Part shown: in pieces, positions 1,052-15,328 of the stretch | Layout of the letters: each line of letters begins with the position of its first letter | Numbering within the stretch: position 1 is the first letter of the stretch | Virus record (IMG/VR): IMGVR_UViG_3300042364_000576 | Coordinates: 1 to 25,837 of that record | DNA: 25,837 bases | Reading direction: 5' to 3' (one strand) | DNA from: a virus | Position numbers and translations under genes: made by a program | The notes under the pieces: generated by a model | The model's input: only the letters and a program-made list of their open reading frames with translations | Told to the model about the DNA's origin: nothing | Databases searched by the model: none

Positions 1052-1224
1052 AAAAAGGTTTTATCACTGACGATGGTTATGCTGCGGTTCCTTATGGTAA
1101 AAAGAACCTAATTATTATACATGGTGGTTATCAGTTAGAAATGGTTTCTACAGTCCGAGAAGCACAGAAATTCATTAAAAATCACCGTATTCAACCACAA
1201 TCAGGAACGGTATTTGTTAAATGA
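1048..1224 (+). CDS. Small hypothetical protein (58 aa)
   Basis: A 58-residue frame starting MKKGFITDDGYAAVPYGKKN and ending GTVFVK. It fills the gap between two overlapping neighbours exactly: its ATG overlaps the upstream TGA and its TGA overlaps the next ATG, 4 bases each. It is basic with no clear motif. That fit is the main reason to believe it is real. Confidence 0.7.
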   Translation: MKKGFITDDGYAAVPYGKKNLIIIHGGYQLEMVSTVREAQKFIKNHRIQPQSGTVFVK

Positions 1225-1457
1225 TTTCACTATACTTTTGGTTAGGGTTATTTTTAATCATCGGATACTTTGTTGTCACGGATAGTTCCTTGGCAACTTT
1301 TTTGGTATTGACGCAGAAAATAATTGAACTGGAATATAAGAAACTCAAGTGGAGAATCATGCAGAGTCCTGATAATCCAATCGTTAAATATATGATATGG
1401 AGAAGATCCATGAAACTTGCAAAAGAACTCAGGAAGGAATTGAATGAAAAAAATTGA
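1221..1457 (+). CDS. Small membrane protein (78 aa)
   Basis: Residues about 2-20 (SLYFWLGLFLIIGYFVVT) form a clear hydrophobic transmembrane helix. A long basic helical tail (residues 30-78) rich in Lys, Arg and Glu follows and is predicted to be cytoplasmic. The start overlaps the upstream stop by 4 bases, and the end overlaps the halogenase start by 14 bases, so halogenase translation is probably coupled to it. The role is unknown; it could place the downstream enzymes at a membrane, which is inference only. Confidence 0.75.
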   Translation: MISLYFWLGLFLIIGYFVVTDSSLATFLVLTQKIIELEYKKLKWRIMQSPDNPIVKYMIWRRSMKLAKELRKELNEKN

Positions 1458-2892
1458 TAGTATCATTGTAGTTGGTGGTGGTACTGCTGGATGTATTGCT
1501 GCTTTGATTTTAAAAACAAGATTTCCACAGAAAGAAATTAAGATCGTAGAATCTGCGGATGTTGGTATTGTTGGAGTTGGCGAAAGTTCAACCGAACATT
1601 GGGCTCAATTCTGCTCATTTGTTGGACTCAATCAACTTGATGCTGTGATGCACTGCAATGCAACATTTAAGATTGGTGTGTACTTTGATAACTGGGCAGA
1701 AAATGACTTTATGCACAGTGTTGGATCACCATTTTCAAAAACGATGGCAGGATATTTTTACAATTATGCTCACGTAATTGCAACGGGTCAACTTCCCCAA
1801 AAAATGCAAGGTGATAAGACTTGGGAAAATAAAGTTGCGTTGAATAATTTTAACAATTTGAATGATTCTCCAACGAATCAATACCATTTCGATACATTTG
1901 CATTAAACACATTTTTACATGAAGAATGTAAAAAGAGAAATATTGAAATAATCATTGACGATTTAACAGGTGCAACTTTAGATGAAGAAACTGGAGATAT
2001 TCGCTCTCTTGTGTCAAATGAATGGGAGCATTATGCAGATTTCTTCGTCGATTGCACTGGATTCGCAAGACTTCTTTTACATAAAACTTATGGCATTAAG
2101 TGGAAATCATATGCACGTTATTTCCCATTAAACTCTGCTATTGCATTTCCAACAGATGAGATGCAAGAGTATAACAAATACACCAAATCTACTGCTAGAA
2201 AGAATGGATGGTCTTGGACAATTCCAACGCAAACTAGAACTGGAAATGGATATGTGTATTGTGATGGATTCATTGGAAAAGATGAAGCTCATCAAGAAAT
2301 GGAAGAAGCATATGGTCAAACTTTAGAAGTTGCAAGATCATTCAAGTTTGATCCTGGTCGTTTAGAGAAGGCATGGCATAAAAACTGTTATGGGGTCGGA
2401 TTAGCTCAAAGTTTTGTTGAACCATTGGAAGCTACATCTATTGGTAGTGTCATTCAACAAATGTTTTGTTTCATACACTTTTTACCATCATATGACGAGG
2501 AAAGCTGTAATAAACATGTAAATGACATCTTCGATAACATTGCAGATTATGTTCAAGCACATTATCTTGTAAAGAGGAATGATACTCCATTTTGGAAAGA
2601 AGTTAAAAATAATCTGGAATTGACGCCAAATCTTCAAAATTATCTTGATAAGTGGAAAAATAGGATGCCATTACCGTCCGACATTTATTGTCCGTGGGGA
2701 ATGTTCAATTCTGTAAATTATATTCCAGTTCTTTACGGTTTGGATTGGTTTGATCGTGATAAAATTAAATCCGAATATGATCAATATGAAATGTATGAAA
2801 CTTCACAAAAAGAATTAGATGAATCTAATAATTATCAAGACAGTTTATTCTGGATTGGACATAGAGATTTTATTAAAAGTATAAAAGGATGA
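1444..2892 (+). CDS. Flavin-dependent halogenase, tryptophan-halogenase family
   Basis: A 482-aa protein, close to the usual 500-540 aa of the family. It has the FAD-binding GGGTAG motif (residues 11-16), GVGESSTEHW (45-53), a lysine in ATFKIG (K76) that lines up with the catalytic lysine of PrnA/RebH, the diagnostic GWSWTIP (255-261), and FVEPLEAT with E326 at the place of the second catalytic residue. Such enzymes use FADH2, oxygen and halide to make a lysine-held halogenating species that modifies an aromatic substrate. Another cyanophage member, VirX1, has been shown to halogenate, preferring iodide. No flavin reductase is visible nearby, so FADH2 would have to come from elsewhere. The stop overlaps the next gene, an oxygenase. 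The substrate cannot be read from the sequence. Confidence 0.95.
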   Translation: MKKIDSIIVVGGGTAGCIAALILKTRFPQKEIKIVESADVGIVGVGESSTEHWAQFCSFVGLNQLDAVMHCNATFKIGVYFDNWAENDFMHSVGSPFSKTMAGYFYNYAHVIATGQLPQKMQGDKTWENKVALNNFNNLNDSPTNQYHFDTFALNTFLHEECKKRNIEIIIDDLTGATLDEETGDIRSLVSNEWEHYADFFVDCTGFARLLLHKTYGIKWKSYARYFPLNSAIAFPTDEMQEYNKYTKSTARKNGWSWTIPTQTRTGNGYVYCDGFIGKDEAHQEMEEAYGQTLEVARSFKFDPGRLEKAWHKNCYGVGLAQSFVEPLEATSIGSVIQQMFCFIHFLPSYDEESCNKHVNDIFDNIADYVQAHYLVKRNDTPFWKEVKNNLELTPNLQNYLDKWKNRMPLPSDIYCPWGMFNSVNYIPVLYGLDWFDRDKIKSEYDQYEMYETSQKELDESNNYQDSLFWIGHRDFIKSIKG

Positions 2893-3515
2893 AAATGAAT
2901 AATAAATTGATCGTCGTAGAAAATTTTTTTGACGATCCCGATTCCGTAAGAAAATGTGGAATAGATTTTTTTAATTCTCCAAATGGCAATATTTTCAATG
3001 ATAATGGAAAAACTTATCCTGGATTTAGAAGCTACAAACTAAGCAAACAATTTCCACATATTCACGAAGAAATTCAATCAAAAGTAGAGTTTCATACTGG
3101 AGAAAAATATTCCAAGTTTACCGCAACTTTTCATCTTACAAACTCCACTCATGGTTGTGGACTGATTCATTTTGATAGGAAATATTTAGCTGGAGTGATT
3201 TACTTAAATGAGTTTTACCCACAAAATACTGGAACGAAAGTTGTAAAATCTTTAGTGCCGGGAATTGACGAATTGCCAGAACTATTGTTTCAGTTTCCAA
3301 AAGTGTCTCAAAGCAAGGATTACAATGTGTTGCAAGATTTTGCTAAACTTAAAAGAGAACGTGCTAAAGAGTACTATAAAGATTCTATAGTAATTCATGG
3401 AGAATACAATAGACTTGTCGCTTATGATGGAAATTTTTTGCATACTCCAGACAATTACTTTGGATTTAACTTATACAATTCTAGATTGACTATAGCATTT
3501 TTTGCAGATCTGTAG
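2889..3515 (+). CDS. DUF6445-like Fe(II)/2OG oxygenase-fold protein, halogenase partner
   Basis: A 208-aa protein with the N-terminal signature IVVENFFDDPDSVR, then HFD (H94, D96), a distal histidine in FLHTPD (H185) and an arginine (R199). This HxD...H...R order is the metal and 2-oxoglutarate site of the double-stranded beta-helix oxygenases and matches what I recall of DUF6445 proteins. The first ATG overlaps the halogenase stop; a second ATG at 2895 has better spacing (6 bases) from AAAGGA at 2883-2888 and may be the true start. It is related to the protein at 13602. The likely role is hydroxylation or a similar oxidation; the substrate is unknown. A TATAAATA late promoter follows it. Confidence 0.8.
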   Translation: MKMNNKLIVVENFFDDPDSVRKCGIDFFNSPNGNIFNDNGKTYPGFRSYKLSKQFPHIHEEIQSKVEFHTGEKYSKFTATFHLTNSTHGCGLIHFDRKYLAGVIYLNEFYPQNTGTKVVKSLVPGIDELPELLFQFPKVSQSKDYNVLQDFAKLKRERAKEYYKDSIVIHGEYNRLVAYDGNFLHTPDNYFGFNLYNSRLTIAFFADL

Positions 3516-3544: not shown

Positions 3545-3712
3545 ATGTACGAAGATTTAACACATTTTGAAAAAACACTTGCGCGATTTGGTGATCGTGT
3601 GGAATTGATTGTGGGACTTGAATTGGGTGATAAACTCACCGGAGATCAAGCTTACGAGCAAATTAAAGAACTATATAAAGAACTTAAGAAGGTTTATAAA
3701 GCAAAAGAATGA
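3545..3712 (+). CDS. Small conserved-type phage protein (55 aa)
   Basis: Starts MYEDLTHFEKTLARFGDRVE and ends in a Lys/Glu-rich helix. It looks like a short all-helical protein, and I recall similar N-termini (MYEDL..FEK..ARFGDRV) in other cyanomyoviruses, without a known function. It is the first gene after a TATAAATA late promoter, and its stop overlaps the next ATG by 4 bases. Confidence 0.75.
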   Translation: MYEDLTHFEKTLARFGDRVELIVGLELGDKLTGDQAYEQIKELYKELKKVYKAKE

Positions 3713-3999
3713 CTATGAATAATGAAGTAGGATCTGGAACAATGCCAGAAGCTATCTGGACACTACCAGTAGAAAAAGTTAAGAATGACAAGGGAAAAGA
3801 TGAATACATTATCTCGATTCCAGATGAAGTAAGAAAGCATCTCAAATTAAAGGAAGGTGATAAACTTTTTTGGGGAGAACGAGAAAAAAACATGTATGAA
3901 GTTCGTAAAGCCAAAAAAGACGAATTGCGACATTTTAAGATTGATCTTGGACAAGATAATGCCATTCGACAGGCAAAAGCAGATAGATTTATGTTATAA
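3709..3999 (+). CDS. AbrB/SpoVT-like (MazE-fold) putative DNA-binding protein
   Basis: A 96-aa protein. Residues about 16-62 show the swapped-hairpin pattern: TLPVEKVKNDKGKDEYIISI, then PDEVRKHLKLKEGDKLFW, closely like the (V/I)TIPkeiRkkLglkeGD core of AbrB and MazE antitoxins. The C-terminal tail is basic. Proteins of this fold usually bind DNA as dimers and act as regulators or antitoxins. The next gene overlaps by one base but does not look like a known toxin, so a toxin-antitoxin pair is not supported; a phage regulator is more likely. Confidence 0.65.
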   Translation: MTMNNEVGSGTMPEAIWTLPVEKVKNDKGKDEYIISIPDEVRKHLKLKEGDKLFWGEREKNMYEVRKAKKDELRHFKIDLGQDNAIRQAKADRFML

Positions 4000-13322: not shown

Positions 13323-13609
13323 AAGAGAAAAAACCTGAGTTTCCTTCATTGGTTGAACAGGGAAAAAATCTTGCCAAGTCTGTAAAGAATGTTGCGAAGG
13401 ATGCAATTAAAGGGGGACCCGTTGTTGCCCCATTTGAAGTTGTAAAAAAAAGACTGAAGACTTGTAAAAAATGTGAGTATTATTATGAGTCTGCAACGGA
13501 CCAGAAATTCGATAGATGTTCTGCATGTGGATGTGTCATAATAGCTAAGACAAATCTAGCATCTTCAGAGTGTCCCAAGGGGAAATGGGGTAAGTGGGAA
13601 AGTGAATAA
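13319..13609 (+). CDS. Zinc-ribbon-like protein with six cysteines (96 aa)
   Basis: An amphipathic basic N-terminal helix (GKNLAKSVKNVAKDAIKGG) precedes a cysteine domain: C49-x2-C52, C67-x2-C70-x-C72 and C85 in SSECPKGKWGKW. This CxxC...CxxCGC...CPxGKW layout recalls the DUF6171-type zinc-ribbon proteins found in several phages. It probably binds one zinc and may bind nucleic acid or protein; no enzyme motif was seen. It overlaps the following oxygenase-fold gene by 8 bases. Confidence 0.75.
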   Translation: MKEKKPEFPSLVEQGKNLAKSVKNVAKDAIKGGPVVAPFEVVKKRLKTCKKCEYYYESATDQKFDRCSACGCVIIAKTNLASSECPKGKWGKWESE

Positions 13610-14276
13610 TATTATTCCCAACACGATTGTGGACGGGTTTTTTGATGATCCATATCAAATAAGAGAGTTTGGATTGCAATCTGCACAACACACTGAAACT
13701 GATAGAAATCAAGTATCATATAGGGGACAAAGATCAGAGTGTCTCTCTAAAGTACATCCAGTTTTATTTGATCAAATCAATAAAAAAATTCTAAGTAGTT
13801 TTTATGATTTAAGTAAAGAAAACATTTCATGGAAGTCTAATATCAGATATCAACTTACAGATGAATCTTTTGGATATGGATGGGTTCATACTGATTATTT
13901 TGTACCTTCATTATTGACAGGAATCATTTATTTGAATCCAGATACATCGTTAGATTCTGGTACAAGTTTATATCGACCGAAGAATTTAGTTGCACATACA
14001 TTGCACGATGATGTAAAAAGAAAAGCTAATATAGATCTACAGTTTAGACAATCTGATTATTATTTTAAGTGTAGAGAGGAAAATAATAATCAGTTTGAAA
14101 AGATATTAACAGTAAATAATCTGTTTAATCGAATGCTTGTATTTGATTCTCGTTATTTTCATTGTGCAGATCGTTTCTTTGGAAATACTAGAGAGACTAG
14201 TCGATTGACCTTGGTTGTGTTTTTATATGAATTATTTGTGAACCAAACTCCGATTACAAGAATACGTTCAGTTTAA
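13602..14276 (+). CDS. DUF6445-like Fe(II)/2OG oxygenase-fold protein, second copy
   Basis: A 224-aa protein from GTG 13602, inside the end of the zinc-ribbon gene. It repeats the plan of the protein at 2889: IVDGFFDDPYQIREFGL at the start, VHTDYF with H96 and D98, LTGIIYLNPD, a distal histidine in FDSRYFHCADRFFG (H187) and R201. The two differ widely in the middle, so they are old paralogues or separate gains, not a recent duplication. The metal and co-substrate residues appear intact, so an oxidising enzyme is likely. The substrate is unknown. Confidence 0.78.
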   Translation: MNNIIPNTIVDGFFDDPYQIREFGLQSAQHTETDRNQVSYRGQRSECLSKVHPVLFDQINKKILSSFYDLSKENISWKSNIRYQLTDESFGYGWVHTDYFVPSLLTGIIYLNPDTSLDSGTSLYRPKNLVAHTLHDDVKRKANIDLQFRQSDYYFKCREENNNQFEKILTVNNLFNRMLVFDSRYFHCADRFFGNTRETSRLTLVVFLYELFVNQTPITRIRSV

Positions 14277-14548: not shown

Positions 14549-15328
14549 ATGGCAAAAGGATTTACTGTTAAGGCTCCTGCTCCAAAGGTACAAGAAGCCG
14601 AGTGGGACTATGATAAAATTAAAGAAAGAATGCGTGGGAAGTCAATTGTATTCTGTCTTCCTGGACGTGGTTGTTCATATCAGTTTCTGAAGTCATTTGT
14701 ACAACTGTGCTTTGATATGGTACAGAATCAAATGAGTATTCAGATTTCTCAAGATTACTCATCGATGGTGAACTTTGCACGTTGTAAGTGCTTAGGTGCT
14801 AACGTACTTCGTGGTCCTAAGCAGATTCCCTGGGATGGTAAACTGAACTATGATTACCAACTGTGGATTGATAATGACATCGTGTTTAACACAGAAAAGT
14901 TCTGGCAACTCTGTGATCTGGCTCTGAGTGAAGACAGCGAGGGCAATCTTGTTGACAAAGAAATCACCGCAGGTTGGTATTGCACAGAAGATGGTCACAC
15001 GACCTCAGTGGCTCACTGGTTGGAAGAAGATGACTTCCGTAAGAACGGTGGTGTGATGAATCATGAGACTCTGACCACCATGGAAAAGCGTCGTAAGCCT
15101 TTCACCGTAGACTACACTGGTTTCGGTTGGGTGATGATTAAGAACGGTGTCTTTGAGAACCTTGAGTACCCCTGGTTCGCTCCTAAGATGCAAGTATTTG
15201 AATCTGGCAATGTCCAGGATATGTGTGGAGAAGACGTATCATTCTGTCTCGATGCTAAGGAAAAGGGTTTTGAGATCTGGTGCGATCCTCGGATCCGTGT
15301 TGGTCACGAAAAAACTCGTGTAATCTGA
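14549..15328 (+). CDS. GT-A-type glycosyltransferase-like protein (259 aa)
   Basis: After a short linker, residues 31-110 read as a Rossmann-like nucleotide-binding half (KSIVFCLPGRGCSYQFLKSF ... YDYQLWIDNDIVF) ending in the DxD motif D108-N-D110, which in GT-A enzymes holds the metal and nucleotide sugar. Later come TGFGWVMIKNGVFE and GEDVSFCLDAKEKGFE (ED at 228-229) with IRVGHEK, the usual acceptor-site and late His positions. It would move a sugar onto an unknown acceptor, perhaps a virion protein, as it sits just before tail genes. No membrane helix was seen. The composition is GC-richer than the neighbours on both sides. Confidence 0.78.
   Translation: MAKGFTVKAPAPKVQEAEWDYDKIKERMRGKSIVFCLPGRGCSYQFLKSFVQLCFDMVQNQMSIQISQDYSSMVNFARCKCLGANVLRGPKQIPWDGKLNYDYQLWIDNDIVFNTEKFWQLCDLALSEDSEGNLVDKEITAGWYCTEDGHTTSVAHWLEEDDFRKNGGVMNHETLTTMEKRRKPFTVDYTGFGWVMIKNGVFENLEYPWFAPKMQVFESGNVQDMCGEDVSFCLDAKEKGFEIWCDPRIRVGHEKTRVI

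Follow-up and report, generated by a model that had tools for sequence, protein, structure and literature searches.

Organization of the Locus

The window, meaning the whole stretch of DNA analysed here, is a 25.8-kb virus record with T4-like baseplate genes. Because of these genes, and of a gp6 that is 59% identical to the gp6 of Synechococcus phages, it is classified from its sequence as a cyanomyovirus-like fragment. Three ORFs stand where the original prediction had placed them (1221–1457, 1444–2892, and 2889–3515), and the locus comprises the following features:

1221..1457, plus strand: small protein of 78 residues with one transmembrane (TM) stretch, PHROG 3344 (hydrophobicity; PHROG match).
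1444..2892, plus strand: predicted flavin-dependent halogenase of 482 residues (Pfam, PHROG, motifs, AF2 fold).
2889..3515, plus strand: DUF6445 protein, 208 residues if started at 2889 or 206 if started at 2895 (Pfam, invariant residues, AF2).
2886..2889, plus strand: AGGA, a Shine-Dalgarno-like site within the last halogenase codons (visual reading, no statistics).

The halogenase gene had been described as overlapping both of its neighbors. Upstream this is the case, with the 3′-end of the 1221–1457 gene overlapping the halogenase start by 14 nt. The downstream overlap had to be corrected: no Shine-Dalgarno sequence is suitably placed for the ATGA at 2889, and the AGGA at 2886–2889 lies 5 nt before the ATG at 2895. 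Since this spacing fits the latter better, the DUF6445 protein probably starts at 2895 rather than at 2889, which leaves a gap of about 2 nt between the two genes. Such a gap is still consistent with translational coupling. Gene overlaps are however frequent in phages of this kind, and an overlap by itself therefore says little.

The 78-residue protein contains a single hydrophobic stretch, with a maximum Kyte-Doolittle mean of 2.23 over a 19-residue span. Homologues occupy the same place in six contigs (L009, L010, L011, L012, L013, and L014), and the protein was seen only beside halogenases at least 70% identical to that of the window, so that the membrane role once proposed for the pair finds no support beyond these nearest relatives. 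Elsewhere in the window, positions 3709–3999 encode a protein with a MazE-like antitoxin domain (6.1e-6), and a second, divergent DUF6445 gene is found at 13602–14276, upstream of a glycosyltransferase-like gene (14549–15328) and of the gp25/gp6 baseplate genes.

The Halogenase

The product of 1444–2892 matches the Pfam family PF04820 (Trp_halogenase) over residues 7–435, that is to say over the whole domain (E = 2.6e-92), as well as the PHROG tryptophan halogenase family (1.8e-112). Its AF2 model has a pLDDT of 89.5, and the top PDB folds are Xcc4156, which comes out best, PyrH, and PrnA. Both signature motifs are present and conserved across the viral homologues: GGGTAG, which corresponds to the GxGxxG motif for FAD, and WSWTIP, which corresponds to W-x-W-x-I-P. 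Of the 123 viral homologues, all keep the catalytic Lys76, and 119 keep Glu329. The prediction of a flavin-dependent halogenase with intact catalytic residues is thus well supported, since residues, Pfam, PHROG, and fold agree with what had been read from the sequence. The window carries no flavin reductase of the PF01613 family, as had been noted before, and none was found in 19 other halogenase-bearing phage records.

In a quick tree, with SH-aLRT support only, the window halogenase falls within a phage-only group of 49 rows, while those of phage syn9, a relative of Syn10, are placed in a second phage group, with 16 rows. It lies outside the clade of the syn9 and Syn10 halogenases, the latter being VirX1 (PDB entry 6qgm). 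The known phage halogenase VirX1, to which the original prediction had pointed, thus belongs to another phage clade, and a close relationship with it is not supported. Among bacterial contigs, L025 (36%, labeled Actinomycetota) comes nearest to the window halogenase, though it may itself be viral; directly after its halogenase it encodes a protein weakly related to the syn9-gp43-like family.

The DUF6445 Protein

The product of 2889–3515 matches DUF6445 (PF20043) with 31.0 bits, against a curated cut-off of 24. In an alignment of 18 phage and bacterial DUF6445 proteins, H94, D96, H185, and R199 are among the invariant residues. From what is known of the superfamily, we take H94-D96-H185 to be the 2-His-1-carboxylate iron site and R199 to be the arginine that binds 2-oxoglutarate (2OG). 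The AF2 model (pLDDT 87.9) has almost exclusively 2OG oxygenases among its best Foldseek matches, and it matches PHD2, a bacterial prolyl-4-hydroxylase (P4H), and EctD. Profile comparison by hhalign with a set of phage 2OG oxygenases gives E = 1.6e-5. The protein displays an HxD…H facial triad and a C-terminal arginine on a double-stranded beta helix, and it is a predicted Fe(II)/2OG oxygenase, the fold proposed earlier for this downstream gene being confirmed by both the invariant residues and Foldseek. No mention of DUF6445 was found in the literature searched. As for its viral relatives, a search of viral contigs with the single window sequence found nothing, and genes were found with a closer alignment as the query.

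Conservation of the Gene Pair

A DUF6445 gene lies directly 3′ of the halogenase gene in all six contigs (L009, L010, L012, L013, L014, and the window) in which the halogenase is at least 70% identical to the window's, itself included, and the downstream sequence is complete. It also follows the halogenase of L119, which is 59% identical. This partner is however mostly missing beside the halogenases of L109–L118 (58–66% identical), and among further relatives the pair is mostly split or other oxygenases stand in place of DUF6445. In L130 and L136 the order is endonuclease, then DUF6445; in S-H38 two other oxygenases are found directly downstream of the halogenase and a DUF6445-matching gene upstream. 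Overall, an oxygenase is directly downstream in 12 of 75 dereplicated halogenases. The exact pair is therefore a feature of close relatives, split or replaced in most of those below about 66% identity; such a split had been named as evidence against a functional link, and among distant relatives it holds for the exact pair, though not for the enzyme types.

In the P-SSM2-like group (L002, L005, and the L120–L142 region), a SegE-type GIY-YIG endonuclease gene comes after the halogenase in 17 loci, and in some of them it stands between halogenase and oxygenase.

Association of Halogenases with Oxygenases

In bacteria, a Trp-type halogenase is encoded within 1.5 kb of the DUF6445 gene at 33 of 62 loci, and a halogenase, SapC, Cupin_8, or TonB receptor is near it at 39 of 62. 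These are family-level loci, class-wide co-occurrence having been uninformative, with DUF6445 in few of the sampled genomes and the number of halogenase candidates limited; one set of genomes was reached through halogenase matches, which biases that set upward. The chance rate for such a linkage is estimated at about 2%, from 18 scored halogenases listed in one 4.7-Mb genome.

In phages, the association was assessed by permutation in 17 complete genomes, which are not phylogenetically independent. Among the oxygenases listed, at least one is found within 3 kb of the halogenase in 13 of the 17 phages, against 5.1 expected (P about 1e-4), and 46 lie within 5 kb, against 13.1 expected. Immediate adjacency occurs in 4 of 17, against 1.5 expected among the oxygenases listed (P = 0.056). 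A phage-wide rule placing the halogenase immediately beside an oxygenase is thus ruled out, and the enrichment is one of gene neighborhood. Cyanophages are rich in 2OG oxygenases, so some adjacency is to be expected, and many of the DUF6445 genes in phages are without a neighboring halogenase.

Several independent arrangements were also found. In L268, a DUF6445 gene precedes a halogenase (39% identical to that of the window) with a 14-nt overlap, which is the reverse order. In L335, three DUF6445 and two 2OG_Oxy_3 genes lead into the halogenase, and a similar array is found in L277. Finally, a single 680-residue ORF in L178 (1450–3492) joins an N-terminal Trp-type halogenase to a C-terminal domain with HxD…H among its invariant residues. 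Stand-alone relatives of this domain occur elsewhere, for example in syn9 and Sf-CH11, and lie there close to halogenases. Its relevant PDB matches are TET-like dioxygenases at a weak E = 0.05, and no clear profile match was obtained with the other 2OG sets; for this reason it is called only a probable Fe/2OG-type oxygenase, on the strength of its invariant residues and sub-threshold matches. Since the association recurs in unrelated phages and in bacteria, in reversed order, in tandem arrays, and in one fusion, the two enzyme types are likely to act in a shared pathway.

Several other observations were made in these neighborhoods. Seventeen apparent halogenase matches beside viral DUF6445 genes were discounted, their best match being the fused C-terminal domain of L178. 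Contigs L160–L164 share one 11.4-kb arrangement of four tandem halogenase-family genes flanked by several 2OG oxygenases, and L158 has three halogenase-family genes. An unnamed family of 230–290 residues, with no Pfam match above cut-off, is repeatedly found beside phage halogenases, the syn9/VirX1 group included (L008 3630–4418, which is syn9 gp43; L335 5694–6398; L178 693–1463; L165 9518–10138; L255 7063–7929), and distant relatives lie near the tail genes of haloarchaeal tailed viruses. It could be a partner or a substrate of the halogenases. Some PHROG names look wrong when compared with domain matches and were not accepted: members of PHROG 274 (“DNA endonuclease V”) and 1644 (“minor coat protein”) match 2OG oxygenase/DUF6445 in Pfam, PHROG 447 (“NAD synthetase”) matches SegE GIY-YIG, and PHROG 2954 (“ferrochelatase”), to which the L178 domain belongs, resembles an oxygenase.

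Substrate and Proposed Mechanism

Trp-specific halogenases carry a Trp4 motif, and enzymes devoid of it make no contact with tryptophan (PMC8269204). With the motif definitions of that study, neither of the two Trp-specific versions is present in the window halogenase, in which the corresponding stretch reads CPWGMFNSVNYIPVLYGL. Free tryptophan is for this reason an unlikely substrate. The cyanophage PrnA has been said to produce chlorotryptophan (PMC9964418) and possibly to give antibiotic protection (PMC2984593), and because free tryptophan is unlikely here, it is doubtful that these remarks apply to the window protein. Pyrrolnitrin-type chlorotryptophan is likewise an unlikely product, given that the Trp-binding motif is missing and that the enzyme is not in the VirX1 clade. 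Xcc4156 and BrvH are active on indoles and not on free tryptophan, and a peptide substrate has been suggested for them (PMC7336383). A larger aromatic borne by a peptide or protein is our guess for the window enzyme, made from the missing motif and from the context of related phages.

The locus may thus encode a two-enzyme oxidative tailoring module that acts on one larger, probably peptide-borne aromatic substrate, a reading to which we give slightly better than even credence. By analogy with its family, the halogenase would bind host-supplied FADH2, O2, and halide to form hypohalous acid; Lys76, together with Glu329, would then hand this on to an electron-rich ring, which would receive chlorine, bromine, or iodine. 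The DUF6445 protein, with Fe(II), O2, and 2OG, would hydroxylate or otherwise oxidize the same substrate, and the two steps could occur in either order. Instead of free tryptophan, the substrate would probably be some larger molecule that carries an indole or phenol group, the likeliest candidate being a phage or host peptide or protein. Of the two oxidations on one substrate first proposed, the shared pathway is thus retained as likely from the recurrent association, while the exact pair is often split and free tryptophan is argued against.

Other explanations have to be weighed against this module. The two genes could be coincidental neighbors, that is, independent accessory genes that are co-transcribed and serve different substrates in a type of genome full of 2OG oxygenases. 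The number of these enzymes in cyanophages, the splitting of the exact pair in most distant relatives, and the marginal result for immediate adjacency in complete phages speak for this; the bacterial linkage, the local enrichment, the reversed overlapping pair, the arrays, and the fusion speak against it, and we hold it to be improbable, at about one chance among a few. Slightly more weight, though still well short of an even chance, goes to the idea that the pair tailors a small molecule (an indole, a pigment breakdown product, or a host signal) and not a peptide or protein. BrvH and Xcc4156, which have no Trp4, do accept free indole and its derivatives in vitro, and VirX1 accepts many aromatics. 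Such breadth in vitro is however weak evidence as to a native substrate, and there are no biosynthetic genes around the halogenase-DUF6445 pair.

The database name and the earlier proposals for cyanophages would instead make the enzyme a PrnA-like tryptophan 7-halogenase supplying chlorotryptophan for an antibiotic. Set against the CPWGMFNSVNYIPVLYGL stretch in place of either Trp4 motif, and against the fact that no pyrrolnitrin pathway gene was recognized within the window, this is extremely unlikely. It is also very unlikely, if a little less so, that the flavin enzyme has ceased to halogenate and hydroxylates a peptide residue, as do the distantly similar maturases LodB and QhpG: the profile matches to these are very weak and mostly confined to the FAD-binding motif, whereas the viral homologues conserve Lys76 and Glu329 and the fold is nearest to true halogenases.

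Phage halogenases are usually guessed to make antibiotics from tryptophan. Two observations point to a different role: the missing Trp motif, and the link with Fe/2OG oxygenases that recurs in phages as well as in TonB-type loci of bacteria. Concrete pairs, arrays, and one fusion that can be tested are now named for it. If the tailoring module is real, it would be the first functional setting for DUF6445.

Comparison with Known Systems

Like the window enzyme, VirX1 is a flavin halogenase encoded by a cyanomyovirus, but the two are only about 30% identical and belong to separate phage clades. In the related phage syn9, whose match statistics equal those of Syn10, the halogenases are clustered with oxygenases, among them gp52 (DUF6445) and gp49 (JmjC_2/Cupin_8), and as in the window there is no PF01613 flavin reductase. 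Halogenases of the VirX1 group are mostly found beside tail-fiber-type genes, whereas that of the window is not. In eight phages (S-SRM01, S-SZBM1, P-TIM40, P-RSM6, S-WAM1, Sf-FP1, S-CREM1, and S-RIM44), the halogenase gene follows a tail-fiber, adhesin, tail-fiber-assembly, or collagen-like gene, either immediately or with one or two small genes in between, and most of these phages have several oxygenase genes in a row thereafter; in the tree, S-SRM01 does not fall within the VirX1 clade. This placement after tail-fiber-type genes suggests a virion target for these halogenases. Since the window pair is located differently, this suggestion enters only the broader idea given below.

Among the bacterial enzymes, the Xcc4156/BrvH-type indole halogenases resemble that of the window in having no Trp4, and Xcc4156 is its best fold match, although the identity is only about 24%. 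PrnA and PyrH have in common with it the fold, the FAD motif, and the catalytic Lys and Glu, but they hold free tryptophan by the motif that it lacks. A closer relative is encoded by P-SSM2 (prnA, PSSM2_217), with 57% identity and a 2OG_Oxy_5 gene one gene downstream; there, however, a SegE-type GIY-YIG endonuclease gene separates halogenase from oxygenase, and the oxygenase is of another subfamily than the window's.

The bacterial loci that bring together TonB-dependent receptor, SapC, Cupin_8, DUF6445, and halogenase link the same two families as the phage. They differ in that no TonB receptor or SapC was recognized at the phage loci examined, and in that the DUF6445 proteins are only about 20% identical. 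It is tempting to see in both a peptide- or protein-modifying system common to phages and bacteria, in which a halogenase and Fe/2OG oxygenases (DUF6445, JmjC-like, 2OG_Oxy) would together halogenate and hydroxylate one target, the tail fiber or adhesin in the VirX1 type, but this broader idea is tentative and more probably wrong than right. What the two kinds of loci do have in common is that oxygenases of the Cupin_8/JmjC type accompany the halogenases in bacteria and phages alike.
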